Below the pieces are notes generated by a model. It worked only from the letters and a program-made list of their open reading frames with translations. It made no database searches and was not told the origin of the DNA. From Bryum argenteum (lineage: Eukaryota > Streptophyta > Bryopsida > Bryales > Bryaceae): a stretch of DNA of 64,000 nt. A program made the translations under genes and the position numbers. The DNA lies in the NCBI GenBank assembly GCA_037043015.1, contig CM073321.1:6654001-6718000 (forward strand). The letters run 5' to 3'. Positions 38,631 to 63,429 of this stretch are shown piece by piece; within the stretch, counting starts at the first letter, position 1, and each line of letters starts with the position of its first letter.

Positions 38631-38859
38631 CTTGGGCTACCTCGCTCGTGGATTTGCTCGCTTTTTCGTAGACGTGCCCGGTTGGAGATTGAGAGGTTGG
38701 AGACTCCGTAGCTTGTTGGCGATCTTGAGTGGGAGGAGCTACACTATCCTCTAAAGGAATAGATCCCGCACTCAGACTTTGCATTGTGAGCGAAACGACA
38801 TCGTGCAAGGCCGCCATGTCGTTTGGCAGCATTTGAAACATTTGAAAAATTGTTAGAAA

Positions 38860-39085
38860 TAAAGAGCGAGATGAGATATTTGTCCGAGACTTTTCCCTCG
38901 TGGATACCGTTGAAACGCTCATTGCTCGCAGGACAATATTGCACAGACTTGGACTGGTATCCACTCTTGAACGCCTTGAAATACACATTGGCTTGCAACA
39001 CGTAATTCGTTATAGTGGGAATATATATTGATTTTGATATAGGGAGACTTCCATTTAGATCGATTCTTACCTGATTATTTACCAA
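38860..39085 (-). pseudogene. Fragment related to the gene D methylase-like exon
   Basis: The minus-strand frame contains PASNERFNGIHEGKVSDKYL, which aligns with PSSNERFNGIGEGKASEKHL in gene D exon 4 (43850-44219). Similarity includes about 20 residues before it (ANVYFKAFKSGYQSKSVQY against AVVHVDKKLKDEYARKAANY) and is lost soon after. It is isolated just upstream of copy 3, so the two ParB-MTase types may once have been adjacent or recombined. Confidence 0.55.
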
Positions 39086-39341
39086 ATCATCAGGTTATTA
39101 CTGATAATGATGAATTTTCTCAATATAAAAGACAATAACAGAAAGGAAATCATAATGCAAGCTAAGAAATATGTTCCTCCAAGAGAAAATTTTATTGATA
39201 TGAAAGCACAAATACAATTTATTGGTGTAATTGTAGACCTCCAACAGGTAGGCATTATATTATCTACCAATCACGACGTGGCGGAGAGGAGGTATCACCA
39301 CTAGAATCTTTCTTAGTGAATACAGGTTCCTTACTACGTGT
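39086..39341. other. Short AT-rich interval, no gene seen
   Basis: A 65-codon plus-strand frame (39107-39304) has ordinary composition but no recognised motif; I do not call it a gene. Confidence 0.4.
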
Positions 39342-41520
39342 CTATTTAGAGAATGCAGGCTTGTCCATCTCCATAAGCGCACCACTTCTACGATGCTTCA
39401 ATGCACGTCTCCGTAATAGACGGTGAGTCTCCGACGATAATCGTGCAGGATAAACGCAAGTGTTTGCTCCAAGAGACAAGGAGCAATGAGACACAGTATT
39501 CCGCAAGGGACTATTTGGATCGAATTGAGCTAAATAGGCACGGCCATCTACGACGGAGTCGCGAAACACAGCTTCACCTTGGGGTGCCGTTGCAACCGAG
39601 GTCATCACACCGATTCGATCATAGCGGGTTGCAATACTTGCTTGAGTCTGAATAGGGGGAGTGTCTACTACACCTTCCTCGTCATTATCCATGTCTTTTT
39701 TCGTGTAATCTACAGCCGACGCGTCGTCCATAGCACAGTAGATCAACCGTCCCCGCCTCCGTTCCGAGAAAGTTCTCGAGTCCTCACTTGTAATGGAAGG
39801 ATCTGACACTGTTGAAGGACCAATTACAAGATTTGCTTGCACAGCACATGATGGAAGTAGAGAGAGCTGACGTCCAACGGCAACAACCTGGTTTATAAAC
39901 ACACCCATTTTAGAAAGTTAGTCCATGACAATAAGTGCAATGAAAAAGGTACAGATAGATAGAAACTCCGGTCCCTTTCTAAGGGGCCGGCGTGAATGAA
40001 GTGTCCGTTCGTAATGCTAATATCCCGATGGCCACCGGACAAGGGGAAATTGGAACAATACTACTTCCTCCTCTCGAGGGTGGACACTGTAACTACGCTA
40101 GTTTCTAGCCTAGTTACTAATACCTTGAAAATACTTGACATAGTATCCCCCCAAAGGGCTTTGAGGTACCCATACAAAAAGGTCCAAAGACTCCCCACAA
40201 TAGTTGGGTGGACTATAGGGGTGAACACCACGCCAGCATGGGGAATGGAAGTCACGACCTCCTCATTGGGGGCCTAAGCCCTAACCACCAAGCCAAGGCT
40301 TGTAGTGCCTGAAAAAGGTACACAATATAACAACGCATTTAATCACGTATGTCGAGGGGGGATTTACCAATCGATCCACAATATATCTCCATCTAAGCAA
40401 CTGATAAACATAAGGTTGCTAGAGTAAAAATCAAAATAATACCAATGATGAAAGTATTCAAGGCAAATTCTTCCCAGTGATTCGGTCCTGATTCTACAAA
40501 TATGGAAGGTTACGGCTCAGGAGCATATACAACTCTGAGTCCTTCGACAGTTCATTATGCGTGGGTCTACGATAGCGCATAGTCTCATGAAAATTCTCAT
40601 GACCGTTCAAATGCATGGCAAGACATATCTCGCCTATCCTTTTTAACAACTCGGACTTTGGCTCTTCCGGACAGGATTGGTTCCACAAAACAGTGAAAAG
40701 TGTGTTCTTTGTGGGAACCGCAATGCAAGTCTCATGCTTGGAATCGACAATGAGCAAGTTATCGTCATTGAAATTGGCACCCTTCCTAGGATACAACCGA
40801 CGCCGAGGATATTTTAAGAGGATGGTATTTGTCGTTCCGGGGTACTTGGCGAATGCGTAATTCTTTAACGACAGATTATCGCATTGGTTGGAAGCCAAGA
40901 CAACTCCAGGGGCAACGTCTGACTTCGAGAACAAAAAGGAGCAGAGTCAATGGACAACCTTAGGATCTAGGGTACTCCAGACGTGGATGTGGCAAAACAA
41001 AGCTAATTAGCGAAGGAACCCGGTCAACCTGGACGACAGTAGACGACCCTGCCGGCAACTTAGGTTGGGACGGTGGAGGAAAACACCGGAGGATTATTGG
41101 GATCCGGAAAACACAGGCACTCTGCAGGCGTTGGGGTAGACACAGAGGCCATTGAACATAGAACCCCGTCCAACTCCAACACCACATTCAACCACTTGGG
41201 CTTGGATCGTAAAAGACTGCCCGAGATATGCGTAATGGGTAGCTCGGGCGTGATACGTTGTTTTGGCTGTTTGGAGGGTCCGGCCTGCATCAAGGGAACA
41301 CGTAACAATAGCAAATGGTATTAAAAAAAGAGGGTGTGTACCTTGCAAAATGCTGAAGTATGCAAAGAACTGCCAGCAGTTATTTGGTATTGAACCGCGA
41401 CACCCACAGGTAACATGAGGTGGTTGGTGGGGGATTTTGAAGCAATCGGACGGAACAAGGTATTCAGAAGGGGGGCCTGGTAGAAAAGGATGATGTTTAG
41501 GGCCTTGTAATGAGAAGGAC
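39342..41520 (-). pseudogene. Unrecognised minus-strand exons downstream of gene D
   Basis: Candidate exons with GT-AG borders: 41503-41342 (PSEYLVPSDCFKIPHQPPH, then CGCRGSIPNNCWQFFAYFSI), 41284-41029, 40922-40494 (CDNLSLKNYAFAKYPGTTNT; KRIGEICLAMHLNGHENFHE) and 39890-39342 (acidic, then RRRALKHRRSG basic end). In one frame the second exon reads ECGVGVGRGSMF, faintly like a SAM-binding loop, but an alternative frame is equally open. They could be the 3' part of gene D or a separate gene. A SINE-like unit sits between the last two exons. I do not recognise the family. Confidence 0.4.
39985..40310 (-). mobile_element. Second tRNA-derived SINE-like unit
   Basis: On the minus strand a head with TTGGCTTGGTGGTTAGGG (A-box-like) is followed by GAGGAGGTCGTGACTTCC (B-box-like GGTCGTGACTTCC). 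GAGGTCGTG is shared with the unit at 1447-1640. The tail is not well defined. It lies in an apparent intron of the gene D downstream exons. Confidence 0.4.
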
Positions 41521-42979
41521 GCAGACTCAGTGAAGACGAAAAGTAATGTACAAAAAAAGAGTCTCAATTTTATTGAATGATGTTTCAATAAGTACAACGT
41601 TTATAAGTGTACTATGTACAAAAAGCGAAACAACATCCAACAATTCGGACACTACTCATCGACCTACTCGTCGCCATCGGTGCCAAACTCGTGTCAAACA
41701 AGGAGTGCCGGCTTTAAGATTACTAAATGCGAAAACTTCAAGACATGACGAAATAGCAGAGCAACTGCCATTACTAGCATCGATTACAAAGACAAAGAGA
41801 AGGAAAGGATAGTAACTAACCTCTGGATTTACCGGTGAAGTCTTAGCCGTCTCGATAGCAGCCACGGGAGAGTCACGGGAAGGAACAACCTCTGCATGCT
41901 CCCCCACATCCAATGCTACTGCAGAGGTGTGATGCGTCAGCGTTGCGGTTACCTCAGTCGGGTCATCATCCTCTTGTGCAGGCCTATCCAAAATCTCAAG
42001 GGGTACGGGGCAAGGTGCGATCTGCAGTTAAGCAACATGAGGAGGTTGTGGAGGCGCAACGATGGCTAGTGGACTCGCGACACAGATGCTGAGGCAGGGT
42101 TGATCAGGGTTGCTGGAGGCCATGAAGAGAGGAATAGGTAATTGGGATAAGATATTTCCGAATGAAAGAAAAATTTGCTCCATCTTGCCCAGCTGCATGC
42201 AAGTTCCAGACTGAGAGCTTAGAAGGGTGGACTCTAATCTGTCAACTCGTGCATTCTGGGCCGCGATGTCTGCTAACCTTTGCTTCTCTCTCTCCATTTC
42301 TTCCTTTGCCTTGAGGGCCTTCTACGCCTCCTTCTCTTGCCGCTCCTGTGTCCGCTTCTGATCCTTAGTGAGCAGAGGGGCAACAATTTCCAGCTTCACT
42401 GGTGGTCCTGAAGGCTCTCCTTCTTCCCTGAACAGAGGCACGATAGGGAGAAGAGGATCATCCTCAGTGCTCTTTGGCTTTAGAGAACTAGGCGCCTTCG
42501 AGAAGTCGTAATACCGGATTTCTATGTTATCCTCCGGCTCGTCCTCGGGCTTCCGCACTCCTTTCACGAACCATTTGTCGTACTTCCCCTTCTCAATCTG
42601 CCTCCTCGGTGCGATCTGCGGGCATTGGAGAGCAGCCGCCAAAGTAGTCTCGTTGTGGGATGGATCAGGAGCCACCTCGTTGCGTGAGGTCATGGCTACG
42701 GGGTCAGCATCATTAGCGCGGTCATCGTCGTCGCCGTCATCGTCGTCGCTCGCATCCTCAACATCGTCATCGTCGGATGAGTCAGAGCTGTCGGAAGTTG
42801 GCGCATCCCGTGGCAGTCGCTCTTGGCCACGCACTACATCGTCTTTGCCAAAGGCTTCCCGGTAGACTGGATCATTCGAGTTCTTTGAACGAATCTCGCT
42901 TTGAAAACGCTAGGGTGGAACTTTGTGTTGAACTGGAGTTCCAGCGGCCCCAAGATCGACGACCCCAGGGGACTGCTCG

Positions 42980-43000
42980 TTTAGCTCGACTCGAGCTAAA
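42980..43000. repeat. Palindrome P1, copy in gene D intron 5
   Basis: 21-bp near-perfect palindrome: arm TTTAGCTCGA, one central base, then the reverse-complement arm. Centred in a ~100-bp intron (donor GTGAGG at 43012, acceptor CCCTAG at 42911). If not spliced it would encode DLARVELNEQ. Confidence 0.85.
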
Positions 43001-43682
43001 TCCTCACCAGATGGTCGAACACGACGCAGGCGCTAGAGTGGCGGGCTCTCTGTGTCCCTAACGAGATCGCACGCGTCATAATTGGATGCAAGCGCCCTCT
43101 GTGCTTGAGGCACAGTATTGCTTCTTGAACGAGAAGCCTCTCCAGCTCGGGCCTGAGAAGAGGAACGCTTAACGGATTCGCGCGGGGGGGCGCGTGCTGT
43201 ACTGCAGCTATGAGACACTGAAGACCCAACTCAACCGCTTCCACGACCCAGAGAAGCGCTAGTACCAAGGCCACAAGGGGGAGCACGAGCAGTATTGTAC
43301 GGAATTGCCAATCAATTGCGAGAGGAGACACGAGAGCAACTTTTGAATCCATGGAGGCATTCATCCCCGCCGGAGAAGAAGGACCACCTTCATCTTCACG
43401 TTCGTGCTCCGAAGCTCAAGAGTCGTCACTAAGAGGCTGCGTGGACTTCTTTTTTGACTTCCTCTTCTTTCCTTTCCGTCACCCCTCAGCAGCAGGCTTC
43501 GTATTGCCAGTAGCTTCCGGATTTACGTACGTTGCGACATTGATATCATTGTAGTCCAAATGTTGGTAGAGTGCCGCAGCGTTTGCATAAGCCTCTGCCT
43601 CGTTCTCGCTAATAACAACATACGTCTCAGCCAAACACATCTGTTATAGAAGGAGACAGAAACTTATTAGAAGACGAAGACA

Positions 43683-43808
43683 AAATAGCTCGACTCGAGC
43701 TAAATGGTCATTGAGAAAATACAGAGAATGAAAAGATAAAAGTATGAGACTGTTTAACTCGACTCGAGCCAAACGAGCATGAGACCGTTTAGCTCGACTT
43801 GAGCTAAA
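43683..43808. repeat. Palindrome P1, three copies in gene D intron 4
   Basis: Copies at 43683-43703, 43753-43773 and 43788-43808, 70 and 35 bp apart, inside the intron 43849-43641. The middle copy has two changed bases (TTTAACTCGA..., GAGCCAAA). Confidence 0.85.
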
Positions 43809-45219
43809 GAAGCAAATGGAAAAGGAATGGCGCGAGGTACTTACAATTCCAGCCAACATTGGCTTTGTGCCAGCCATTATTGATAAGAACTTTCCCCTCG
43901 GAGATGAAAGCATCTTCAAAACACGACAATAGAACTCCAATCACAACTCGGAGTGACTGAGACCTAAGTCGTGTTCTCTGTACGCCCCGGACTTCATGTA
44001 CACGGGCAAGTCTGGAGCATAGAATACAAGTGGAATCGTTTTCAGGACATTCTGCGCGTGGCTGCTCTTCTCGACAAGGAAGAGCAAGGGGAGCAGGTGC
44101 TTCTCTGAAGCTTTTCCCTCTCCTATGCCATTGAAACGCTCGTTGCTAGAAGGCATGTAGTTGGCTGCCTTGCGAGCGTACTCATCCTTCAACTTCTTAT
44201 CAACGTGCACCACTGCCTGGCAATGTCAGTTGACGTTCCCGGTGATCAACATTCAGACCTCGGAATTCTTGATGTGCGGATCGGTTACGGTGTCTGCCCA
44301 AGTATCAAGGAATTCTTGAAAGTATGGACTCTCTGTGTCGTCCACTCGACTTCCACTCCCAGGGACAGATCGCAAATCGATGAAGCCGATATCAAACTTG
44401 CTAGATTGGCTCCAGGCGTAGTCCCAAATCCGGAATTTGAATTCCGACGAGAAGAAGTGCCGCGTATAAAGAATTGGTGCAGGAGGTTCAAATGTCCTTT
44501 TGACATCCGGAAACTTCTTGAAGAACTCGGCTGCATATTCCAAAATTTCTTCTGCACTCTTATTCTTTGTCTGCTTTTGGCGGTACAGGGTGAAGAACGA
44601 GTCGCCCGGGACCGAGAGAAGCATGGACATAGTCTGACGAGTCAGATTGTAGTCCTTCTTAAACTTCTTCCAGTTGTCGGCGTTGAATTGCCACTCCGAG
44701 TTGAACAAACCGAGCGAGGGCTTCAGGTTGTGCAATTCCCTTGCGACAGTGTTCTTCCTCTTCCGGTTTTCGACCCACTGCTTTGCGCTCAAGCACTAGA
44801 AGTACTTTTTTGCGGGCTTCTTCACGGCCACCTTCGGGTAAGGTTATGTCTGATCATGAGTCTCGTTCAACAAAAGCAGCGCCAACACCTCGAGGTCCTC
44901 TGCGTTTAGCTGCCCCATTCCCTTGAAGAACTCCCTGTTCAAGGTGAACTTCTTTGCGGCGATTTCTCAATCTTTCGCCCGATTAAATGGGAGCTCGGTG
45001 TTTGGGTCCATCAGCTCTCCAAGTCCGTAGTTGGTGATGAACCTCGACCACAACTCGTAGACGTCGTCAGGAGATGTGATGATGAGGAGCTCGTTGCGAA
45101 GGTCGGACGATCTGACGATCTTGTCCCTCGTGTTTGTGTTGATGCTCATGAACCTCTTCACCATAGCAGTCGCAAATGCCTGGACCAAAGCCAAACGAAT
45201 AAGGAACAAGCTATGCTGT

Positions 45220-45240
45220 TTTAGCTCAAGTCGAGCTAAA
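45220..45240. repeat. Palindrome P1, copy in gene D intron 2
   Basis: TTTAGCTCAA, central G, TCGAGCTAAA. It lies in the 148-bp intron 45328-45181. Confidence 0.85.
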
Positions 45241-46691
45241 ACAACGTCCCCAAAAAACATCTACATACAATGCAAATTAAGCCATACAGAAATTTGTTTT
45301 GCAAAGAAAAGAACAAGTAATTTTATACCTCATATCTTGTACGGTTATCTAATTTACCCGTTGTTTGACGTTGATGCGGCTTCTTCAACTTCATCGGGCG
45401 GCCGTAATCTTTCCAAACCTTTCTTGCGCCCTTGATGTTCATTGCCCTGGAAGGAATGAACGTGCCAACATTGTTCGTCTTGTTCGCCATGGCCGACACG
45501 TCCAGAATCTTGCTAATGTCCGAATGCCACACAACATGGGCTTTCCATGTCTGCAGGGCAAGGATCTTTGCGGCGTCAACCTTCTTGTCACGAATCAACT
45601 GTTTCGCAGCCTCAACGTGGTGCTGCCCATCAATAATCCGGAACCGACAAGTTTCGACCAGCAGTTCCCAATCCCAAACCTCAGGCTCATCTTTAATCTT
45701 CGGCATAATGATGATAGTTTGTCTGGAACTAACGTTGAGGGAATCTATCAATATGTTCTTGTAATGAGCGATTCCGGTCAGTTCCAAAGATCTCACTATG
45801 AATCTTGGTTCTGCAGGGTCGAGCAGGCCAATCGACACGTCAAGCGGATGGCCGCGACCAAAGACATAACAATCTGCGCAGTTGCTCCAATAGTCCTTGA
45901 GAGCCTTCGTCACTTTCTCATACTTGATCTCCTTCTCCGAGACAACCACGTTCATTGTGGGGTTTATGAACGTAAGTGCGCTACCGGAGGATTTGCTCCT
46001 TTTGTAGCCAGAGCTGGATGAGATCGGGTTTCCCCGCTTCGATCACTGCCCGCCTAGACTTCCCTCTGGAGTGCCGAGACCCGACGAAGCATTTTCGGAT
46101 GAAGCCTGCAACAGTAGATTCCCGGTCCGTTTCATCAGAGCCTTCCCTATCTTCTTCGCAGTCTCGAAATCAGACAGAGCCTTCCAAATCTGCGCCGTGT
46201 ATGGAATGTACAATCTCACGAAAGCTTTTGGCGACGAAACATTGGGTAGCAATCTCGTGTCGAGATGATGAAGCTGAGTGGAATCGACCTTCCCGACCAT
46301 ATAATTGCAGATGAAGTCGTGGGAGAATCGGACTTCGTTGGGCGGAAATACAATGGTGAAGACGAAACCTTCAACCTCCAATGCTTCGAACTTGATAAGG
46401 AGGTATGCGTCCTTATAATTAACAAGACCGATGAAGGCATCAATACACAGAGGTAAAAATGCCCCGTAAGACCCCGATGGTTGGTAGAAGAAGAAATGGG
46501 TCTTGTTCATCGGACGAATAGACCAAGAGGGAATGAAATTTCTCTTGGGGGTCTACAAAATCCCTCATTGTGCGTCCTCACCAATAGCTGCAAGCGGATC
46601 GTCTGCTGATTCTAGAATGACTGGTTCAAGGTATCCCTCCAGTGCTTGCATGTTGTAAGTGACCTAGGGATAACAAAATTACAGAGGGCGA

Positions 46692-46712
46692 ATTAGCTCG
46701 ACTTGAGCTAAA
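46692..46712. repeat. Palindrome P1, copy in gene D intron 1
   Basis: ATTAGCTCGA, central C, TTGAGCTAAA, inside the 92-bp intron 46755-46664. Confidence 0.85.
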
Positions 46713-46969
46713 TGGACACATCTAAAGTGCTTATGGATATGAGGTGGAGTCTTACCTCAGGAATAGACTCTTGCTCCTGGACTTCCATATCGACGTCCTC
46801 GGCAGGTGCATTCGCATCCATCGGAATAATCTTAGCAGTGGGTCTGGTTCTCGCCATAACTGTACATCAACAATACAGATTCAAATGTAAGATTCACAAT
46901 GGCAAAATACAAAAGCAAATTATCATAATGCTCGTTACGATGAAATCGGGAAAGCAAAGCATGCGCGCA

Positions 46970-47650
46970 ATTAGCTCGAGTCGAGCTAAACGAGCTTGGG
47001 TACGTCAAGGGGAATAAGGGCCTATCAAAGTTTACGTGACTATTTAGCTCGACCCAAGCTAAATGGGCTTCAGGTGTCTGGCCTCCTGCAGGACTGGTTA
47101 GGGAGTTTACGTGCTCAAATAGCTCGAGTCGAGCTAAATGAGCCGACCTATAAACTTGCTCACTTGAAGATCCGGATAAAATATTGCAAGTCCTGAAACA
47201 TGGTGCAAAACCATTTAGCTCAACTTGAGCTAAATGGCCTTGACCTGAAACATTGTCCGAGACCATTTAGCTCGACTCGAGCTAAATGGGCATGCATTGC
47301 GCATTTTAACGCACCCATTTAGCTCGAGTCGAGCTTAATGGGCTTGACCTAAACCAAGGTCCGAGAACATTTAGCTCGAGTCCAGCTAAATGGGCTTCAC
47401 CATAAACAACGTCCGAGACCATTTAGCTCGACTCGAGCTAAATGGGCTTGTCCTGCGCATTTTTACGGGCCCATTTAGCTCGAGTTGAGCTAAATAGGCT
47501 TCAATATAAAGAACGTCCGAGACCATTTAGCTTGACTTGAGCTAAGTGGGCTTGACCATAAACTACGTCCGAGACCATTAAGCTCGACTCGGGCTAAATG
47601 GGCTTGACCTGAAACAAGGTCTGAGACCATTTAGCTCGACTCGAGCTAAA
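46970..47650. repeat. Palindrome array A (P1 repeats) upstream of gene D
   Basis: Twelve copies of the 21-bp palindrome. Starts: 46970, 47043, 47118, then 47214, 47266, 47318, 47370, 47422, 47474, 47526, 47578 and 47630. The last nine are spaced exactly 52 bp apart, with spacers of 31 bp that fall into two related types (one with CTTGACCTGAAACAAGGTCC, one with CTGCGCATTTTTACG). The palindrome contains TCGA and, depending on the central base, CTCGAG. It lies 5' of gene D; an acceptor-like CAG just before its ATG suggests the array is in a 5' UTR intron. It continues as GGGCTTGCTAAAT microrepeats to about 47700. Confidence 0.92.
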
Positions 47651-47829
47651 TGGGCTTGCTAAATGGGCTTGCTAAATGAGCTAGATGGGCTTGCTGGTCG
47701 GGAGGAGGCCACTCCCGCCCTGTACCCAGCCCGTCCGCCACCAATTCAGTGTTGCCCGGGCTAAGCCGACCTCCTTGGGCTGCCAAGGTTGCTCGTTTTC
47801 TTTTTTAATTTTTTTTTTATTTTTATTTT

Positions 47830-50100
47830 TTTTGTTGAGATAAAGCATGAAAGAAGGTGGTTTTAGCATTTAAATAAGCTAATTAGGACCCTACAAAATT
47901 TTTGGAACCATCAAAAAAAATTATGCGAAAGTCAGTGTTATTTTTTCCGAATTAGTTTAGAATGGTGGAAGCAACCAGAACTTTGAAAAATAGAGGGAAA
48001 TTAGTAAAGAGGAGAGGAAAAATAATTTCAAATCTTAATTAAGCTAATAAGTACCTTATAAACATGGTGGAGGAATAAAAACAATCATACGAGTGAGGGA
48101 CTCATATGGTAGATTTTGGTTGCGAGTATTCGAAATTATATGAACTTAGAAAAATAGGGAAAAAATAGATAGAGGTGAGGAGAATATGATTTTAACACTT
48201 GGACTCGCTAATAATGACCCTATAAAAATGATGGAATCATAAAAATAACCATAGGGGAATCGCATCCATATGTCATGATTTACATGCAACCACCAAAACT
48301 TTGAATAATAAGGGAATAGAGCATGAAAGGGGTGATGAGGTGGTTTTAACATTTGAAGTTGCTAATAAGGACCTTATGAATGTGATGGAAGTGCTAAAAA
48401 AGTCATAAGAGAATAGGATCTGTGTGCTTGAGTTGACGTGGGGATATTTGAATCGGCACGATTTGAAGCAAGGGGGTGAATGCAAATATACAAGTAAAAA
48501 AGGTGTGAAAGGGGTCTTTATGATTTTCCTAGGTGACTCACATAGTATAAAAAATATGATGAAAAACTTAGAGCCACGGGGGGAACGGAAGTATTTTTCC
48601 CGAATTACCTCAAGTTAATTAGACACGTTGAAATTGAGGGACGGTGTGTACATATATATAAGATAAAGCATGGAGGAAGGTGGTTTTACCATTTTGATAA
48701 GCTAATAAGGACCATATAAAAATGTTGCAACCATCAAAATAGTTCAAAAGAAATCAAAGCTATTTTTCCCGAAATACCTTAGAATGATAGAAGTGATGAG
48801 AACTTTGGAAAATAGAGGGAAAATATTTAAGAGAGAAGGGAAAATTATTTTTAATCTTGGATTAGCTAATAAGTACCTTATGAACATAATGGAGCAATAA
48901 AAAAAATCATACGAGTGACGGATCCATATGGTGGAGTTTGGTTGGGGTGGAAGCACACTAGGGTGGATCAAAAAGTACGTTACGCCCTCTAAGTCGTGTA
49001 AATTTGCTTCTTCAATGGCCTTTCATGGACCCCTCTACATCTTAAAGTACTAATTTTTTTTGGATTTAGGTAAAAAGAGTGATGGAGTGTGCAAATCACT
49101 TGACAAATTTTTTCAAAAATATTAGGAACATATTGTAATTTGCACTTCTTGCTTTTCAGAAAAGTACGTTACCGCAATCAAAAATGTTACAAAGTACTCC
49201 AATTTGATAATATTTGAGTTGCAAAGTACAAAAATAATTATATGGTTAGAGAGACCACCTTCTAAGATAACTAACATATGTTGTATCATTACTTTCCAAA
49301 AATTCATCCTTTCCTTACAATTTTTAGCGGTCAAAGGGCAAAATTTTTGTCATGATGTAATTTAGTCAAAAATTAAAAATTTTAGGTGGATTTATGTGCA
49401 TTCCACCATTTTCTTACAAACCCCACGAGGGGCATTTGTACCAACTCATTGTTTTTGGCACCAAAGGCTGCTTCCAAGAATCAAGATATAGTACTTAGCA
49501 TGTACTCTATGTACAATATTAAAAACTTTCGATGGAGATAATTGTCATTATTGCGACTTTTATCACTAGCCCACAACCGAGTCTACTAGTCCCCTTAATT
49601 CTCTTTAATTCACTATGATTTTTAACACTCAATGCTTCTTGTAAACCTTGTTTATTTGCAAATTAAGATTTCTAGTACCTAAAGTACCCAGCAAAATTGG
49701 GCATTGACTTTTGGTACTTCTTGAGTACAGGTACTTGTCCAAAAGTGATCCACCCTAGTATGCTTTTACCCGTTGCAAGTATTTAGGAACATCAGAACTT
49801 TGTAAAATAAGAAAATAGATAAAGGGGGTGAGGGGACAATTTTAACACTTGGACTAGCTTATTATGTCCCTATGGAAATGATGGTGAAATTTCAAAAATC
49901 GTGGTAATAGTGCATCTTTAAGTCATCATTTACTTGCAAGTACTTTGAATCAGCAAAACCTTGAATAATAAAGGGAAAATAGATATGAGGAGATGGAAAA
50001 TGATTTTAAAACTTGTAATGACTAAACATGACTTTATAATAATAATGGAAGCATAAAATTTATTGTGATAGAAAAGTGTCTACATGTCATGATTTAATTT
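47830..50100. repeat. Diverged AT-rich tandem repeats
   Basis: Recurring phrases GCTAATAAGGACCTTATGAA, ATGGTGGAATCATAAAAAT, AGGGAAAATAGATAAAGGG and CTTTGAAAAATAGAGGG appear in the same order at intervals of roughly 170-200 bp (about 47870, 48040, 48200, 48360, 48700, 48870, 49850, 50020). Interrupted by the MITE at 48945-49771. No coding potential. Confidence 0.7.
48945..49771. mobile_element. MITE-like element (827 bp) with 26-bp inverted ends
   Basis: Left end 48945-48970 and the reverse complement of the right end 49746-49771 differ at only 3 of 26 positions (shared core ACTAGGGTGGATCA; outer GGGT..AAGCA). It is flanked by GTTG on both sides (48941-48944 and 49772-49775). The pre-insertion sequence TTTGGTTGCAAGTATT matches the undisturbed neighbour repeat unit TTTGGTTGCGAGTATT (48115). 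Interior AT-rich, no transposase. The 4-bp (or 3-bp TTG) duplication does not fit an obvious superfamily. Confidence 0.82.
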
Positions 50101-50560
50101 GACTTTGGAGGATGGTGAGTAATATCACACATAGAATACTAAACCTGTAAACTGTATTTACTCACTGAATGTTAACAAGACCTAATTCTAAACCAATAAT
50201 ATTATACTCTAAATATCATATATGGAAATAATACACTTGAAAAAAGTAAGTAATAAACTTATAATTACTCAACTTATTCACTGTCTAAATACTCATGTAA
50301 TAGTATCTCACATAAATATGTTGAATATTATGTTCATAATATCCATTTGTAGAATACCACATTCAACATAATTGAATATCATACTTAATATACCAGACTA
50401 ATTAAGTAGAAACTAATCTTACAGAATCGCATTTAAATAAATTCAATATTTTGTTTACTATAACTGTTTTAATGTACGGAGTACTAATCTTTTAATATTA
50501 CACGTATTTTAGTAAATACAAATCTTACAATACTTCACATGACCTGTGGATTTTGATAAA
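50101..50560. repeat. AT-rich repeat shared with the window's right end
   Basis: Phrases such as AATACTAATCTTA, ATACCACA and AAATTGAATATTATACT recur at 50200-50530 and again at 63430-64000. No gene. Confidence 0.65.
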
Positions 50561-52084
50561 TTGAGCATAAACGCTAGGCATAAAGGCTTAGCAAATGTTA
50601 ATAGCGTCCACCATTTCACATGCTAATTCACAAAAATAAACCTAACAATTGTTAGGATTGAAATATGGAAGTAAAACAAATAGATTCACATAATTACTCT
50701 ATAATTCTACTCTCCATTTGATACTCTATTAAAGCTCTATGAAACTCTTCGAAGTTTCGCGTACTTAATTTAGAATAAAATAAAATTAAATTAGTCAAGA
50801 CTACATCAATCCAAGGTACACGACGAGAACAATTTGTTTTCCCTCTAAACATTTATTAAGTATAAGTTTCATGTAATTAAATATTTACATGTTTTTCTCC
50901 CTATACTCTATTTAAGGTAATCTTGTAAAGATTCAAATAACAAATGACGCTATTTCTTTAACAACTATAAGCTTCTTTTTCTCTTTGTGTAGTCGGATGA
51001 ATTGTGCTAAAAAATGTTTGCAACAATGGTAAAAGTGTTATTATTAAAGTTATCGATTTTTAAAATATCAAAAGTTAAGTTAGTTATGGTCTAGGGTTTA
51101 GAGTTTTTCATTACGGTTTTATGGCTTCATGTAAACTTGACTAATTTCTTTACTAATAATACATTAACTTGCCATACATTAACTCGCCACAAAAATTAGT
51201 TTTTCAAAATTCTTGGCTCAAATAAAAGCAATGTAAATGAATGCCTTGGTAAAAACCACCGTAAATTTTACAAAGAAAAAATAGTCGAAAACTAGAACCT
51301 TTGCATTAAATTTCATGCCTTATTTTCAAAACATCTTAGATCTAGTTAAGGTTTCTATCACTTTAACTAGGCTCTGATTATAGGCCATCCAAAAAAATTA
51401 AGTTGAAATCCAACGGTGGATGAAAGAGATATAGCTCCTGCAATATCATCCATTTGTGACTTTTTATGTTGACAAAATATCATTGCAAATCCAATAGCAA
51501 AATCATTATGATCAGAAAACTTTTTACTACAAAGTTGTTAAGAATCACCTTAAGATCATGACCATGAAAAAGTAAATCATGAAACACTGGTTTTAATTTC
51601 ACATAATTGGCTTGCAATGATAATACATGCCCCATGCTTGGAGTTCCAATAAAATAGAAGAATTGTCTTCACTAAAGTGCATTCTATTATTTCATACTTT
51701 ATTATAAATTTTACAATACAAACTAGACTTGATTTGGAGCATAACCCAAGTGATTTCATCCAAAATGGACCTCGGATAAAGAAGATATGGCTATTCAAAG
51801 TTCTTCCTTCCATCCAAAATGTCGTTTTTCGACATTTGCCGCATTTAGGGATTAACATTCTAGTGCCCAATATGTGATTATTTTGTTAATTTGAGTTTGG
51901 GTTATCCATTTTCCTCGCGAATCCGGTTTGTTTAATTACAATTATGTAATTTCTATTTTTAGAAAATTTCCGAATTTCTCGGTGACTTCAAATGATTTTT
52001 ACTCTCCCAAGATGTCCCCGTTCCTCCCGAAGTTCCCAACCACATCGCTTTTACTCAAAATTCTTTGATCGTTAGTGGCCTTTT
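50561..52084. other. AT-rich intergenic interval, no gene seen
   Basis: Only short ORFs without motifs (51577-51870 - is the longest). No repeat structure or RNA gene recognised. Confidence 0.5.
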
Positions 52085-52460
52085 TTGGCGCCCTTTCTCT
52101 GCCCAGTTGGTGCTCTTTTCTGGCGCCATTTTCCTTCCCGCTTCGTGTTACTAGCTCTTCTTTCTCATAGCACACTATCTCGCTCCTCCGCTCCTCTACT
52201 GCTCCGCTCCTTTGCTCCTCCGCTCCTCCGCACCTTCGCACATTTGCCCTTCGCCTCACCTCCGCACCTCCGCACCTTTGCCCTTCGTCTCACTATACTA
52301 CATTTTGCCTATACTCCGTTTCCCATTTGTACTTCCGGTTTAGTAAATTCTGATTAGGGTTTGGGACTCAACCTAGCTCTGGAGTTGATGCGCGTGTTGC
52401 TTTTGAGGATACCCAGGGCCTTCGTTGAAGTATTGCAGCTGTCGGGCACGGCGTGAGGGT
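52085..52460 (+). other. Pyrimidine-rich leader and candidate first exon of the plus-strand DUF7869-type gene
   Basis: A run of CTCCGCTCC and CTCCGCACC words (52170-52290) is followed by a possible non-coding exon ending at a GTGAGTTCG donor (about 52458). An acceptor CAG lies just before the coding ATG (about 53393). If used, array B would be inside the first intron. Inferred from splice-like sequence only. Confidence 0.35.
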
Positions 52461-52705
52461 GAGTTCGATCAATAACCTCAATTTCAATGTGTAACAAGAA
52501 TTTGTTGTTGATTGGTCATATGTTGCCTTCATCGTGCTGCATTCCTGATGGCAAAGTGGATTTTGTCGGAGTTGGTGTGCACGGAAATCGAGGCAAATAT
52601 TCTGTTTTACTTCTGCACAGTTCCCAAGAATCATTCTCCGAAATTACTGTGCACGAATATCGAGGCGGTTTCTTATTACCAATGCATGTAATATGGACAA
52701 CCCCA

Positions 52706-53294
52706 TTTAGCTCAAGTCGAGCTAAATGGGCATCTACATCCAAATGGTTCAAGTTCACAAATTCGTGTATTTGAATGATTTATAGGAAGACCATTTAGCT
52801 CGACTCGAGCTAAATGGTCATCCACGAAAATATAACTATTTGTGTATGTCTTGGGAGATAATTGTTGAAGGATCCTTTAGCTCGACTCGAGCTAAATAGT
52901 CTTCTTTTGACAAATGGTTTGAGGTAAGCGTGATGAACTGTTTTCTTGAACACCGTTAAGCTCGAGTTGAGCTAAATGGGCATCTTGATATTTGCTCACC
53001 AACGAACCCCGAAGCATTTTAAAAAGAAAGACCATTTAGCTCGAGTCGAGCTAAATGGTCATCCAGCTACAAATGAATCTGGGTTTGGTGATGAACAATT
53101 ACCTTGATGACCATTTAGCTTGAGTCGAGCTAAATGGTCATCGACATACCTGTTCATCACGCTCCCCTCGAAGCAAATGTATTTGGATGACCATTTAGCT
53201 CGACTCGAGCTAAATGGTCTTTCTTTTTGAAATGCTTTGGGGTTAGCGTGATGAACAAATATCTTGATGACCATTTAGCTCGACTCGAGCTAAA
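52706..53294. repeat. Palindrome array B (P1 repeats, spacers alternating in orientation)
   Basis: Eight copies of the same 21-bp palindrome start at 52706, 52794, 52876, 52956, 53035, 53114, 53194 and 53274 (steps 88, 82, 80, 79, 79, 80, 80). The last five spacers are one sequence in alternating orientation: forward at 52897-52955, 53056-53113 and 53215-53273 (GTGATGAAC... then TTGATGACC), reverse at 52977-53034 and 53135-53193 (GGTCATC... then GTTCATCACGCTC). Located just upstream of the DUF7869-type gene. Confidence 0.92.
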
Positions 53295-53400
53295 TGGTCA
53301 TACAATTTCCTTAATGGTCATACACATTTTTGATTCTAGGTATATTATTTTACCAGTGATTACTCATGATTGTGTGTTTATTCTTAGCATTCAGGTAATC

Positions 53401-56350
53401 ATGGAATTGAGTGTATGCGATGGCGACGGAGATTTTGAGCGTCTTTTTTCTGAGGTATTGAATTTACTAATTTTGCTTAATCTATTTTTGTCATGAGTTT
53501 ATCCATATGTAGTAATTCGTCTTTGTTTGTGGTCTTAGAGGACTTGGATGTCCCTTCCGAGCTTGTTCTTCCGGACCATTTAAAAGATTGCCCCGGATTG
53601 CCCAGAAGTAAATGGGTTACGAAATTTATGACACTTCTCAACGATAGAGGGGACGTTATAGGCAAAGGCATTTGTCAGACTCTGGGCGCTGAAAGAATGT
53701 TAGAGAGTAATGACGAGCCCGTTTGTGAAGATCAGGAAGTTGTGCAGATCGTAAAGTGCTTGAATTTTGACTTTGTACCTGCTGAGACCATATATGGAAC
53801 TAGGAGTTGGAAGCTTAGCCATGCTATCCATGAGGGTTGGTCACTACTTGATCCTTTAAAAGTTGATTAATTTAATGTCGCTGTTTATGCCCGCAATCAT
53901 CCAAAGAGAAATGAGGTGCGACCGTATGAGTTGGGACATCGGAACTCACGATTCTTAAGGACCAAGAGAGAAGAGGAGCTCCTGACGTTAGATTCAGTCA
54001 ACTTGGTTGCAAGCAAGATTTGCTGCAGCAAGAACTGTTGCCAACCTTTCTCTCGAGAGAAAATTATGGCTCTCCGAAAGCAAATGTACGAGGCGTCGGG
54101 TTTTAAATTTAAGTCACATTTCAAGATAGATGTTCATAATCGTTTTCATCAGGCACCAGACAACACGATGATGGTAACGACTGAAGGCAGCGACGTTTGC
54201 GCGCGTGCATGGCAACATATAAGTGGAGTTCCGATTTCAACATTCTAGAGGAGGAAGGCAGAAGCTGCAGCTGGACTACGTGCTCGCCACCATGGCAATG
54301 TCGGTCAAAAGAAACCACGATTGCATGTTAAGCAAGCTGTAGCTACTCTGAAGACATTCATTGACAATGCTGCTGATCATATGCCTCACAGGACGAAGAT
54401 GTTGACATCTGGTGAGAAGGTTGTGTCTCGGTCCTTGCCGTCGTCCTTCAGATGGAAGGATGCCATACCCGGGATTAATGACATCAATGAGAGGTTGGGC
54501 TTGAAGTCCATTTCTCAAAGCACACTTAGCAGAATTAGGAGGTCATAATTTTCTGAGTATTCAAAGAAGGCGCCGGGGGACAACTTTGCTCGTTGCTCAA
54601 CCTGTGACAGGATGGGGACAATGATCAAGTGAATGGCACCTGATTCATGTGAAGAGAATATGTGGATCAAGAAGCTAGAGGAGCATTTGCATCATCAAGA
54701 AAGGCACCATGAGTATTATTATACAAATTGTTCTCTTTCTATTCAGAGGCCGAGAGATGTACTTTGTATAATACATGACAAAATGGATCATGCAAAGACT
54801 GCGTGCCCTGTGTTTCTACATAAAACAAAGGCAAATGATGCTTTGATGAAGATTCCAATTGCTGTGACTGGCATGAATTGCGCACGGGCATAGCGATGTC
54901 TGGTATGCTCATAATGGGCTTGATATTTATCCAAGTGATTGCAATCACACTGTTGGATCAATATTAAAGCTTTAACGAGATCTAGAAGGTGCTCCAATCT
55001 TGTATTCGAAATCATTATTCGCAAATTCAGGGTCGCTACCTTTATTTGAAGCTGTATTGTTTGGAAAAGAATGGTGTTTAAACTCTCTTCTTCCTGAAAG
55101 TGAAGTTTCTGGGGTGGCGGAGCCTCTACCTCATGTCCCGCATGTGCAACTGGACAACGTAGCTTCTGACAACAAGAATAGATTTATGTTTTGCTTTTGG
55201 TCTCTTCTGGTACTGACACATGAGTGTGTTCCGTGAACTATATGTCAATTTTTTGTTAGTTGGACATACCCACGAAGATATTTACGCCCTCTTTGGACGT
55301 TGGAGCATGAATCTGAAAGAGAATGACTTTCTCACACTTCCTCAGTTGATGAAGTCATTTATGGACGTAGAGTCTTTGCCGGTTATTCCTCATTTGATAA
55401 AGGAAATACCTGACTTCAAGGGTTATATCAAATACTACATTGGTTCTAGAGATGAAATTCTAGTTGGGCATTTGGAGGGTCAACAATTCAAGTTTTACAA
55501 GCATGACAATGGATGGCCCATGATGTAGTACAAGATGTTATGCACAGACAATGAGTGGTTACCTTCTACTAATGGAGGTATAAAATAGTGGAAAGAGGAC
55601 GGAAGTACAGGCAAACAATTGTTACCTACAGGTGAGATGAAACCTTTGGCGCCCATTCCCATGAAGAACCGTGATGACATTGTAAAAGGCATTGGAGGGT
55701 TTATTAAGATGTGAGAGACTTCATGTGCGGAGGACATATCTGGAGAATTTCGTCGGCGTCATGAATTTGTTATTCGCTATTGGCGAGCTGTGAACATTGC
55801 GTTGGTTGAGCCTAAAGAAGTGTCTTCATTTTTGAATAACGGGTGTTGGCCTTTAACTCGAGTACCTGCGACACGAGAATTCTTAAATACTGGCGAATTG
55901 CGAGAGGAATATGGGCGTGATCCGCACTTTATCGGACGGTTGTGTGATAGACCAAGGGAGTCGTTTCGTGTTGGTCGAGATGTTTTTGCTGGATATTTTG
56001 TAGCTCTACGTCCAGCCGATGGGGATGCTCGTCCTTTCTGGATTTCTAGGGCTTTAATTGATTTCAATGTTGATCACAACTATCCAGGCTATATTCAAAT
56101 GCAATATTTTCAACCTGCTTAAAACAATAGTATTGTTCAGGAAACCTATGTTGGTTGAAATACGAAGAAGACTTTTAAATGGACAGTTGAAGACACTCAC
56201 ATTCCGGAATGGCTTCATGCTGATGCTATTTTTACGTCATGGAAATCAAGTGCATGACTTGGCTCTCGACGTCCAATTATTTTAATATCGAAGCGTCAAA
56301 TCGACATCATCAAACAAAGTATTGAGCGGTACGACGGTGGAGAGGAGTAG
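53401..56350 (+). pseudogene. DUF7869-type transposon-associated gene, plus-strand copy (decayed)
   Basis: Exon 1 is 53401-53454 (MELSVCDGDGDFERLFSE, donor GTATTG); coding resumes at 53541. Landmarks: LPDHLKDCPGLPRSKWVTKF; CCSKNCCQPFSREKI; KKPRLHVKQAVATLKTFIDN; LTSGEKVVSRSLPSSFRWKD; CSTCDRM; IIHDKMDHAKTACPVF; VQLDNVASDNKNRFMFCF; VNFLLVGHTHEDIYALFGRW; a C-terminal block PRESFRVGRDVFAGYFVALR; end QIDIIKQSIERYDGG. The D(x)M..K, Q.DN..ENKN-like and GHTHEDID motifs are those I associate with DUF7869, thought to be an RNase H-like transposase-associated fold. At least nine in-frame stops and one or more frameshifts (near 55220) inactivate it. Homologous throughout to 58403-61281. Confidence 0.72.
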
Positions 56351-56383
56351 CCTGACATCCCTAGTTTATTTGGGCATGCCAAT

Positions 56384-56404
56384 TTAGCTCTAGTCGAGTT
56401 AAAT
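56384..56404. repeat. Palindrome P1, diverged copy at the 3' side of the DUF7869-type gene
   Basis: TTTAGCTCTA, central G, TCGAGTTAAA. It is the rightmost clear P1 copy; a half-site TTTAGCTCGA occurs near 56720. Together with 42980 it brackets the zone in which P1 occurs. Confidence 0.75.
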
Positions 56405-57269
56405 GACCTCAGTGCAATTTGAGCAATCAATTTATTGTATCGTGACTTCTTGCCAATAGAATCATCTTAGAAATGCACGTAGAAGTCCTATCTCTTATCT
56501 ATGCTAGCGGTTGATATCCGTAGTTAAGTATTGGTACAATCGTTGTGCCTTAAAGGTCAATGATTCAAGTGTTTGTATTTTTTCGGCGTTAATTGTCGAT
56601 TCCCAGTTTAATTGAGTTTATCGTTTTATTGTGCTCTTTTTGCAAATTGATGTCGGAATGCATTTTGCGTTTGCTACTTTCATCATCTTTTGTATTCACT
56701 TTAGCTCTACAACACGCGCGTTTAGCTCGATACATATGTTGGAATTTAGGTCGATTGGTTTTTGAGAGTTTGAATATTAACATTATAACGAATTACGTGT
56801 TACAATGGGAATAGACCATTACAAGTAAAATTTCCAAGAATCTATGTCCATTTCATACAGAAATTTGGAATAGAGTATTGATTGGTCAAATCAACTCTAG
56901 GTAGGTTTAGCACGTAGCCTAGGAGAGTGTCAGGGAGCTATGATTGCTTGTTTCCTAGACTCTAACCGCCACAATCTGTTAAATGCTCGCCGCTCACGCA
57001 TGTACAGCGCACGTGCAACGCAGTCAATGACAACCAATGAGGTTTGGGTTTGTCGTACACATGAATTGTCTAACGATGGCGGAAAAGCAGGTAAACCAAG
57101 CACCACATAACAGTTGACAATGATTGAAGTACCACGGTCTGGAAAGTGTTGTAATGGCGCTCTCATTGTCTGAAATGTCAATCGATTCTTGAGGTCGACC
57201 ACTCAATGCAACCTGCAAACACAACCAACCACAACAATCGACAATTAATAACCACAAAGAAATTTTAAA
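56405..57269. other. Intergenic interval, no gene seen
   Basis: Short ORFs only. No recognised repeat or motif apart from the P1 half-site near 56720. Confidence 0.45.
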
Positions 57270-58402: not shown

Positions 58403-61281
58403 TCATGCTGCAGCAGAAGAGTCTTGTTTTGAGTCACTTGAAAAGGCTTGAACGGATGCCTTGATGATGTCAATTTGAGCCTTAGGTATTGCCACCTTTG
58501 GATCTGAAGTTCCTTCCCGAAAATGTGGCTTCCAAGCTGTCATGATACAACTTGTACTAGACCAAGTTGGATTCATAGACCGATCTTCGCCAAGAGTTCC
58601 CTTTTTTTGTATCCCATCCTTCGTATGTTTCCATATTAATGTGTCGATCAGAAGACGCAGACTTCCAATATTGAATCTCGATCATGTGCATATGACCCGG
58701 ATCCGGACTGGGGTTTGTTGTCGCCCTAGCCAGCCACATCGGCCTCAAGTCATCATCCGCAGGGCGAACTACAACAAAATAACCTGCAAAAGTATCCCGA
58801 TTTACACGGAATGAAGCGCGTGGACGATCACGTCTTCGTCCAACAAAGGGTTCATCCCATGCATCCTCTTCTCGGGGCCTCCCATCTCTCATCCTACGAT
58901 CCGCCTCGTCGTGAAGTACCCTCGTGGCCGGCCAAAATCCGTGTAGTAACCTTTCTTGAGGCTCGAGTTCTGCATCAAGAGCTAATCGAACATCTTCCAG
59001 TACTCTTTTAAAGGATCATTCTTGCGTCTAAATTCTCCGGAGAGATCATCGTTTGCCATTCCAGTCCAATGAGAAATAAAACCATTCAACCCTTTTTTGA
59101 TCTCATCAAGTGTTCGCAGCTTACGTGGTTCAACCGGAAAGGGTTCACCATCTGGAACTATGGGTCGCCTATCCTCTGTCTCTGACCACAACCGGATCCC
59201 GTTGCCATGCGCAGGCAACCACTTCTTATCCGTACACATAATCTTGTACTCCATCAGTGGCCATCCATCAGAATCCATAAAGAATTTGAATTGCTGGGAT
59301 TTTGAATGACCTTCTAAAAAATCACCACCACTCCCTAAGTAACCTTCAACAAACTCCTTAAAATCGCAAACTTCTTCTATCAAATGAGGAATCACAGGGT
59401 GTGTCTCACAATCCATGAAAGATTTCATAAGTCTAGGAATAGTTGGAAAGTTATCTGCCTTTAACTTCAAGCTCCATCGCCCAAACATGGCATCTATGTC
59501 TTCATGTGTGTGCCCTACTATGAGAAAGTTGATGTACACCTCACGGAAAATGCCTTTGTATACAAGTAGCGAACAAAATGCAAATACGTATCTATTTTTA
59601 TTGTCTCCAGAAGCATTATCCAGCTGCAAAACCAATATAGGAGGCAAGGGTTTAGCATGAATCACCATCTCTGGTAGAGGAAGAAGGGAGTCCAAACACA
59701 TCTCAGAACCCTTCAAGACAGCCTTGGTAAATGGAGTCTGCGTATTTCCCTCCGAAAATAGCTTGCGGGAGGAATTTTTTGGTGCCTCCTCTAGATCACG
59801 TAATAACTTAGCAATAGATCCAATGGTATGGTTGGAATCTGTTGCAAATGTGTCAAGGCCATAGTGGGCATACTTAACATCTCCATGACCATGAGCAATC
59901 ATTCCCGTTACTGCAACCGGCATCCTTAGGTAGGAATCTGTAGCTTTGGTCTTGTGAGAATAGTGCGGTGACGCAGTCTTTGAATGATTCCTTTTGTCAT
60001 GGATGATAGTAAGCATCTTATCAGGAAAGCCTTCAGAAACTGTACGATTGAAATAGTACAGTTCTCTATGGGCCCTTGCGCATTGAAGGTGCGCTTCCAA
60101 CGCCTCAGTTCACTTTGATTGTGCATATGAGAGGGGTGTACAAGCACTCCGTAATTGCTTGTACTTATCACACAAACTACAACGAGAGAAACTGTCTCCT
60201 TTGTCCTTCGCAGCAAATTCAGGAAACGACGCCCGTCGAATATTATTCAAGCCAGTTGAAGAAATTGGCGGCAAATCAAATGCTGCATTAATCTCATTGA
60301 TGTGACTTATCTGGTCACTCCAACAAAATGCTGAGGGTAAAACCATTGATGGAACTTTCTCACCAGAAACGAGAGCTTTGGTCTGGTGTGGCATTCTGTC
60401 GGCATCAGAAACTATAAGTGATCGAAGCGTTGCGGTAGCTTGGACTGTGTGAAGTCGAGGTTTTTTCAAACACACATTTCCGTGCACCTCAGTCTGTTTC
60501 CCCCCTTTAGCCGCATCTTTGTACCTGTAGAAGGTAGCTCTCAAAATCCCATGAATGGTCCACCACGCTGTGGGACAAACTTCCCTTTCTTTCAACGTAA
60601 TCCACTCGTTTCCTACACAATCCTTGTGGACTTGTCTATGCACCTCAAGAAGACATTTCTTTCGAGAGTACACGCTATCACTAATATGTAGTTGTGAGCG
60701 AATAGCATAAATTTGCCCGCGAGGAAATGGTTGCAGGCAATTTTGCTCACAACATGTAAGAGTGGAAACTGAGGTGATTGCTTGAGGAGCAAGAAGAGCC
60801 TCTTTCTTTGGGGGTACAGTAGCCTCAAGTCTCTCACGCATGGTTTCATAGGAACGTACACCTTTCAGGCCTCTTTTCTAGATATCCTTTACGGCCATGT
60901 TGTACACGTGAGTCGTGTAATGGTCAAAGAGACTGACACCATCTAGTATGACTAGTTAAATATCCCATGAATGAACGGACCACATCGAACCGGATGGAAC
61001 TTCCAACTCGCACAAGGACTCCGCAATTTGAACGAACACTTTGTCGTCCCCTAAAGGCTCGACGGAAGGAGCGTTAGGATCCAATGTATCATCAAAGGCA
61101 GAAGAATCCGTGTTCTCGCACAAGGCCTTGGCGACGTCTACACTGTCATTGTTGCGTAAAGTAACTGCCTTCAAATACCACTTAGCACGAGGCAGCCCTT
61201 CGCAAACAGCAATCCCTGGACGTAACACAGGAATAGTTCTGGCAAAATCTGAAGGCCGATGCGTGTCCATCCTGCGATAAA
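58403..61281 (-). pseudogene. DUF7869-type transposon-associated gene, minus-strand copy (nearly intact)
   Basis: The first resolved coding exon starts after an ATCGCAG acceptor at 61281. Landmarks in order: CEGLPRAKWYLKAV; CCEQNCLQPFPRGQI; KKPRLHTVQATATLRSLI; LVSGEKVPSMVLPSAFCW; CSLCDKYKQLRSAC; IIHDKRNHSKTASPHY; LQLDNASGDNKNRYVFAF; INFLIVGHTHEDIDAMFGRW; RPRASFRVNRDTFAGYFVVV; end QIDIIKASVQAFSSDSKQDS. The 372-codon open block 58982-60100 holds the core, and 60110-60841 the cysteine region. Defects: stops at about 60957, 60880 and 60107, and two frameshifts near 58990 and 58560. It is much better preserved than its plus-strand relative. It is probably part of a mobile element; catalytic residues are not established. 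Confidence 0.74.
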
Positions 61282-61429
61282 AAGATCCCCAGTCAAAACA
61301 ATGGAGTAGTATATATATTTTGCAACAGCTTCACACCACATAATAATAACAAAAGAGTCAGTACTCAACGCGCAAATACTCGCAAGGACGGATCCTTCAC
61401 GCGGCTTCGCAAATGAGAAGGTGACATAC

Positions 61430-61450: not shown

Positions 61451-61700
61451 CAATGAAATGTAACACAATGTAAGCCTCGCAAGGGGTCCTAGACAGATAT
61501 TGTAACACGGACATAAATATAAGTATCTGTCAAAAATTCAATACATGAAGCCAACAACCTATCACACCGTACGGATGTTTAGAAAGGAAGCATCCGATTC
61601 TTGACACATTGAAGTATATCGGCTGATTACCATCGGTTTCCAGTAAAATACAAACTCATAAATGAAAATAGAAACTAATTAAACGCTAGATGTAAGATAG

Positions 61701-62314
61701 TTATCATCGACCCGACGATAACCTGTATCGTAAAAACCGTTTGAGAGCACAGTGTTATCATCGACCCAACGATAAACTATGTTGCAGACACTATTGAAGG
61801 CAAAAAAGTTATCGTCCGCCCGATGATAAACTACGTTGTGAACACCGTGTAAGCCAACATAGTTATCGTCGACCAGACGATAAACTATGTTGAACACACT
61901 ATTGAAGGCAACATAGTTATCGTCGACCCGACGATAAACTACATTGTGACACTGTGTAATGCAACATAGTTATCATCGGCCCGACGATAAACTACGTTGT
62001 ACACACAATGTAAGGCAACATAGTTATCGTCGGCCCGACGATAAACTACGTTGTAAACACAATGTAAGGCAACAAAAGTTATCGTCGACCCGACGATAAA
62101 CTATGTAGCAGACACTATTGAAGGCAACATAGTTATCGTCGACCCTACGATAAACTACATTGTGACATTGTGTAATGCAACACAGTTATCGTCGGCCCGA
62201 CAATAAAATACGTTGTACGAACAATGTAAGGCAACATAGTTATCGTCGACCCGACGATAAACTACGTTGTATACACTATTTAAAGCAACGTAGTTATCGT
62301 CGACCCAATGATAC
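61701..62314. repeat. Palindrome array C (P2 repeats) upstream of the minus-strand DUF7869-type gene
   Basis: Twelve copies of arm TTATCGTCG, spacer ACC, arm CGACGATAA, starting 61701, 61755, 61809, 61863, 61917, 61970, 62024, 62079, 62133, 62186, 62240 and 62294 (steps 53-55). The ~33-bp spacers are also palindromic: CTATGTTG or CTACGTTG at one side and CAACATAG at the other. Spacer variants recur as a three-unit series (about 61884-62020 and 62100-62236), suggesting block duplication. The array codes SYRRPDDK-like repeats by chance. It is different in sequence from P1 but has the same design. Confidence 0.93.
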
Positions 62315-63111: not shown

Positions 63112-63260
63112 TAGGGTTTAGGGTTTAGGGTTTAGGGTTTAGGGTTTAGGGTTTAGGGTTTAGGGTTTAGGGTTTAGAGTTTAGGGTTTAGAGTTTAGGG
63201 TTTTAGGGTTTTGGGGTTTTAGGAATTAGGAATTAGGGTTTAGAGTTTAGAGTTTTGGGT
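63112..63260. repeat. Interstitial telomere-like repeat, TTTAGGG type
   Basis: About eight uninterrupted TTTAGGG units (63112-63177) pass into degenerate TTTAGAGTTTAGGG, GTTTTAGGG and GGAATTAGGG units to about 63290. This is the plant telomere type, located inside the window rather than at an end. Confidence 0.9.
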
Positions 63261-63429
63261 TTTGAGTTTAAGGTTTAGATCTAAGGGGTTTAGGATTATG
63301 GGTTTACTAAGAATCGAAATATTAAAAAGACACAAGCAATTGCCTTGTTGAAGTTTGAGATCGTTTACAACCACCAAACTTGGCTTGAGTACTGTTGAGA
63401 AAAGGCCTCGAAGTATAGTGGCGATCCGA

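Follow-up and report, generated by a model that had tools for sequence, protein, structure and literature searches.

The window analysed here, a 64,000-bp stretch of Bryum argenteum DNA (C1:6654001-6718000 of the 258.8-Mb assembly, 25 contigs, that was searched), contains a row of short palindromes upstream of a gene with a ParB-like box, which raises the question of what such an array does in a eukaryotic genome. The initial annotation had read a set of nine 21-bp palindromes, with an exact 52-bp step and spacers of differing sequence, as the outcome of selection on geometry, with all sites facing one side of the helix, and had suggested a parS-like site or a cluster of methylation targets.

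Palindromes and the element that carries them

Matches to the 21-bp consensus of the element, TTTAGCTCGASTCGAGCTAAA, bear out the nine palindromes and their 52-bp step (starts at 47214, 47266, 47318, 47370, 47422, 47474, 47526, 47578 and 47630; array A1 in Table 1). The exact period had been described from 46970 onwards but is limited to 47214-47650, since the first three sites are irregularly spaced. The 31-bp spacers do vary, as had been noted, but not independently of each other: the mean pairwise identity of the eight A1 spacers is 67%, against 25% when shuffled, and one spacer class covers six of the eight. With up to 5 mismatches allowed, the window holds 28 matches, all within 39514-56383 and all inside one transposon, assigned to family A. 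They are not due to chance, because no site was found (at ≤3 mismatches) in one block-shuffle, and none lies in window 1-38996, outside the element.

Array A1 lies inside a single 17.8-kb element, because AACACGTAATTCGTTATA occurs at 38997 and, inverted, at 56801, and this terminus is common to relatives. The terminal inverted repeats have 18 identical bases at each end, and 25 of the 28 outermost bases are identical. In two relatives (E1 and E2), the same terminus lies at the right end, where similarity stops; it also adjoins a nested DUF7869-type stretch in another locus (L023). E1 and E2 have 25 and 26 sites inside the element and none in the ∼16 kb outside each. The window copy shows no visible target-site duplication. 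By eye, the left flank (window 37392-39009) looks like the later exons of a second ParB-type gene similar to those of family B, so that the element seems to lie next to or inside a relative. A nested insertion is seen in L023 (at 8244), where a ParB-type gene is interrupted by the terminal repeat of a second element and by a DUF7869-type stretch that matches the one in the window at 89% identity over 1719 bases. Elsewhere in the window there are four copies of a 318-bp tandem repeat (16326-17583), and the remains of a retrotransposon with reverse transcriptase and RNase H domains (27271-30293).

The two genes of the element form a divergent pair, with the ParB-fold gene on the left and the DUF7869 gene on the right, and both are broken in this copy. 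In the former, for which an ATG was placed by eye at 46857, an in-frame stop separates the ParB exon (45326-46042) from 46046-46552, and relatives read on at this point. The window copy, the shared palindrome and the shared termini suggest that the two genes are parts of one element; the only stretch that two loci of family A (L018 and L020) have in common with the others is the start of the array. Most palindromes lie in front of the two genes or in introns, with possible exceptions at 39514 and 42980, which may be coding. The exon that ends in TKPMLAG is followed, in several relatives, by an intron that carries an array with a 35-bp period. The half-site TCGAGCTAAA occurs once, together with two near-copies, just inward of the right terminal repeat.

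Table 1. Palindromes, genes and element boundaries in the window (window positions)
Feature	Position	Strand	Remarks
Transposon, family A, ∼17.8 kb, bounded by terminal inverted repeats	38997..56801		AACACGTAATTCGTTATA inward at both ends
Left terminal inverted repeat, 18 identical bases	38997..39014	+	
ParB-fold protein gene, several exons	39350..46857	-	Outline by eye, left end approximate; fold modelled for homologue
Decayed palindrome	39514..39534		Probably within coding exon
Single palindrome	42980..43000		Exon/intron status ambiguous
Three palindromes, intron after exon ending TKPMLAG	43684..43808		Same intron in families B and C
Single palindrome, intron after ParB exon	45220..45240		Same intron in families B and C
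Single palindrome, intron 1 of ParB-type gene	46692..46712		
Three irregular palindromes, starts 46970, 47043, 47118	46970..47213		Gaps after them 73, 75 and 96 bp
Array A1, nine palindromes, exact 52-bp period	47214..47650		Upstream of ParB-type gene
Array A2, eight palindromes, same sequence as A1 sites	52706..53294		Gaps 88, 82, then 79-80 bp; upstream of DUF7869 gene
DUF7869 gene, split into several frames	53481..56119	+	PF25273, E 2.3e-16 in frame 55217-55525
Single palindrome close to right end	56383..56403		Not clearly intronic
Right terminal inverted repeat, 18 identical bases	56784..56801	-	
DUF7869 gene of family C element	58560..61330	-	Downstream of A3; PF25273, E 8.8e-49 in frame 58985-60109
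Array A3, second element (family C), twelve near-palindromes	61700..62315		Mostly GTTATCGTCGRCCCGACGATAAA, 53-55 bp apart

Copies across the assembly

A search with the ParB exon, in which 150 of 909 first-look candidates were scored, gave at least 151 matches in two main identity groups (∼70–86% and 50–60%). Among the matches listed, most copies are on C1, which makes up ∼17% of the assembly and may, as a guess, be a repeat-rich or sex chromosome. The array search gave at least 305 matches, which were collapsed by hand, among those listed, to 41 distinct array places. When these are compared with 102 ParB-exon matches (a set that leaves out most but not all of the 50–60% group), 31 of the 41 lie within 6 kb of a ParB exon, and all 31 are upstream of it, at 0.6–4.4 kb; a random point on C1 would fall within 6 kb of one of the C1 exons in this set in 2.6% of cases. 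The remaining ten places have no exon nearby in what is an incomplete exon list. The longest array noted extends over ∼9 kb beside a ParB exon (C1:34570097-34579160). The initial annotation would have been refuted by a satellite spread through the genome without ParB-type genes nearby, a pattern that 31 of the 41 places do not show. In a closer comparison of twenty loci, ten from each of groups A and B (200 kb together), a run of sites at 50–55 bp is found upstream of the ParB exon in all ten A loci and in none of the B loci.

Spacing and spacer structure

The ten A loci and the window element contain 286 sites. Between 48 and 57 bp there are 158 spacings, of which 83 are 53 bp and 52 are 52 bp, and their mean of 52.57 bp corresponds to five turns of 10.5 bp, as the one-face argument would have it. 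Another 37 spacings, contributed by runs in the later intron, measure 35 bp, and the period is 79-80 bp before the DUF7869 gene, 30 bp in family B and 53-55 bp in family C. These values share no phase, and strict helical phasing as a general rule is rejected because the period differs between arrays. A freely varying period in relatives had been named beforehand as evidence against the original reading; such variation is partly seen, and it removes the argument from one-face geometry but leaves the link to the ParB-type gene in place. Spacing is secondary, and location is the conserved feature.

The near-constant period is explained by the spacer classes. Single linkage at 75% sorts 157 A-array spacers into 16 clusters, ten of them singletons. 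The four main clusters, mostly of 32, 31, 31 and 32 bases, occur in both orientations (27/29, 28/17, 16/5 and 9/9), and two small ones (5 and 2 spacers) in a single orientation. Because spacers occur both ways round, each array has the look of a mosaic in which cassettes flanked by symmetric sites have been inverted and duplicated. Such a structure would also be expected of passive tandem repeats without function, carried along in a transposon, where the period merely reflects duplication; the main spacer classes are few, of 29–34 bases and in both orientations, and array length is variable, reaching ∼9 kb. This explanation is quite improbable, since it would predict neither that the relatives checked share the intron positions of their sites nor that the half-site switches between families, as described below.

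Symmetry does not extend far beyond the palindromes, reaching only ∼5–7 bases on each side. A second dyad at the spacer centre was not found, either in nine dereplicated 31-base spacers (2.44 symmetric pairs vs 2.10 when shuffled, with 470 of 2000 shuffles as high) or in 17 of 32 bases (2.24 interior symmetric pairs vs 2.50). Within the palindromes themselves covariation is not above chance, with 2 double compensating changes in the 286 A sites against 2.6 expected, and was rejected as proof of selection for symmetry. The bases least changed, in both halves, are positions 4-7 (AGCT), with 28 changes in 286 sites.

Family-specific half-sites

Three families were compared, the third of them known from a single element. 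Family A has the half-site TTTAGCTCGA, family B mainly TTTAGGTCGA and family C TTATCGTCGR; the pattern TT....TCGR is common to all, and the differences are in the middle bases. The ten A loci contain 498 copies of TTTAGCT and 32 of TTTAGGT, and the ten B loci 55 and 260, against 27 and 26 in one block-shuffle of all 200 kb. The A and B half-sites are concentrated in the same 500-bp bins, which cover the upstream region and the introns that follow the ParB exon and the TKPMLAG-type exon. Bins 8, 9, 11 and 12, which belong to the ParB exon and the exons next to it, have 0–1 half-sites. The switch is incomplete: in the B loci, the intron after the ParB exon has 28 TTTAGGT and 22 TTTAGCT. The upstream units of family B are only partly palindromic, and two loci (L035 and L036) have no whole B-type site at 4 mismatches.

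The family C element occupies the right part of the window, and its ParB-type gene, divergent from the DUF7869 gene, lies past the window's right edge (L041), with a box that reads INGQHNIFASKA. In this element, sites precede the ParB-type gene and also occupy its intron 1 and both homologous introns; those of the array have halves that differ at the innermost base. No inverted repeats were found between 56001-58600 and 62301-72000 that could mark its ends. Beside array A3, at 63108-63278, there are ∼24 plant-type telomere-like heptamers (GGTTTAG). All three families have sites before the ParB-type gene and in two shared introns; these introns were compared by eye in the window element (A), L030 (B) and L041 (C), and intron 1 in A and C. 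The motifs of A and B match each other's sites in part (for example, 8 A-type and 20 B-type sites in the B loci at 2 mismatches) because one base per half differs. The C motif has no match in any of the twenty A and B loci when 2 or 3 mismatches are allowed, and element C in turn has no match to the A or B motif at these thresholds. A separate half-site for each family suggests that each family's own protein would recognise its own tag.

The DUF7869 protein could be thought of as a transposase that binds the palindromes to assemble the element ends and regulate itself, in the manner of CACTA subterminal repeats. Both elements in the window have a DUF7869 gene, preceded by an array of eight sites in one and of twelve in the other, and TCGAGCTAAA and its near-copies lie just within the right end. 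We regard this as unlikely, as most sites of the window element are distant from the ends, being central or in introns of the ParB-type gene, and the model of DUF7869, although weak, has no transposase fold. No paper under the name DUF7869 was found in the open-licence literature.

Encoded proteins

The ParB-like character of the neighbouring gene is upheld by structural modelling, as the modelled domain of a homologue has the fold of the ParB N-domain. At the sequence level, a profile search of the PDB gave no match, and there were weak matches to DndB in Pfam (best E 0.15) and to ParB-like PHROG families (E 0.13 and 0.26). The usual ParB box is GERRxRA; that of the element protein reads DGQHHVEAAK. 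The Pfam scan covered 30 open frames of the window, nine more (partly the same) and the 14 members of a further set, and only DUF7869 and retrotransposon domains were above the cut-off. Among the frames scanned, a subset of exons, there was neither a MuDR-type transposase nor a VANC protein.

If the ParB-fold protein were to load at the palindromes as a nucleotide-driven clamp and spread as in bacterial partition, the arrays would be parS-like, as had been proposed. The modelled fold and the clusters of palindromes upstream of the gene would fit. This reading is highly improbable: the helix-turn-helix domain with which ParB-type proteins read parS had no match in the pieces scanned, no partner ATPase was present in the frames scanned, and the box is unlike the usual one.

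A methyltransferase domain had no family or PDB match above chance, and the sole PDB hit (E 0.43), to an unrelated protein, was rejected as a chance match. By eye, a candidate methyltransferase-like strand has the sequence DLR-x-VP in families A and B, as against DVR-x-IP in family C, and we take it to align with the catalytic D/N/S-PP-Y/F/W motif of methyltransferases. The C-terminal exons (window 41063-41320; also in L018 and L020) contain, again by eye, LELDGVLC, which had no Pfam match and resembles the motif of HAD-type phosphatases.

A putative self-recognition system

What stands of the earlier interpretation is the link between palindromes and ParB-type genes, with 31 of 41 places and a modelled fold; the one-face geometry has gone with the variable period. 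Site positions are kept between families, the sequence has changed largely in concert and the sites are mostly non-coding, as expected for a co-evolving DNA-binding protein that is encoded by the element. We therefore hold, with moderate confidence, that the palindromes are putative self-recognition sites, the private address of a family of large, two-gene DNA transposons. A dimeric protein encoded by the element would bind the palindromes of its own family, the ParB-fold protein being the most likely candidate and the DUF7869 protein a less likely one. By covering promoters and introns, it would activate the element or keep host silencing (DNA methylation) off, and host genes and other transposon families would stay unaffected. 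The arrays would supply local site density, and would grow and reshuffle via duplication and inversion between palindromes, with the near-constant spacing as a by-product.

A more elaborate version, which we consider very doubtful, is that a ParB-type protein has been turned into a transposon marker, which would act as a nucleotide-driven clamp at the palindromes of its family, spread from there, and keep the element open or count it, with new families arising by coupled change of protein and palindrome. If true, a parS-like system would serve genome conflict and not chromosome partition.

To our knowledge, few cases of sequence-specific self-recognition by transposons have been described. Under the self-recognition reading, two further gene types (ParB fold and DUF7869) would accompany a palindromic site that is long enough for specificity. 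At least three families keep the site positions and change the address, so that palindrome swaps could show directly whether a selfish DNA-binding protein and its sites co-evolve. The element also places a ParB-fold protein (the fold being modelled) in a eukaryotic transposon, and supplies a context for the Pfam family DUF7869.

Comparison with known systems

In its general build the window element, with its inverted terminal repeats, is like other DNA transposons of that type. CACTA/Spm elements of plants similarly carry repeated binding motifs, in subterminal repeats that are bound by TnpA; the present palindromes stand for the most part in the interior and before genes instead of at the ends. 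With bacterial ParB-parS the element shares a modelled ParB N-domain fold and palindromic sites near the gene. It differs in that the sites are scattered through a eukaryotic transposon and its introns, with no parS-reading domain in the pieces searched. Among the matches listed in the open-licence literature on ParB (in transposons, methyltransferases and eukaryotes) and on subterminal repeats, the available text held no description of this element.

The closest described system for family-specific self-recognition that is known to us is VANC, the anti-silencing proteins of the VANDAL transposons of Arabidopsis. According to the available parts of the reports, VANC relies on family-specific motifs, which occur as tandem repeats in introns and other non-coding regions (PMC5735166; PMC10398659) and evolve together within a family (PMC5735166). 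VANDAL and other transposons carry epigenetic genes, in an account whose available text does not mention ParB (PMC12730594). The gene content is different here, with ParB-fold and DUF7869 genes, and no VANC protein or MuDR transposase in the frames scanned. The palindromes resemble the VANC motifs, as far as the available text describes these, in being short, specific to the family and densely repeated in tandem within introns and non-coding parts of the element. They differ in form: VANC motifs are 8–9 bases long, and those of VANC21 are arrayed in one orientation (PMC5735166, in the part available), whereas the sites of the present element are palindromes of 21 bases.
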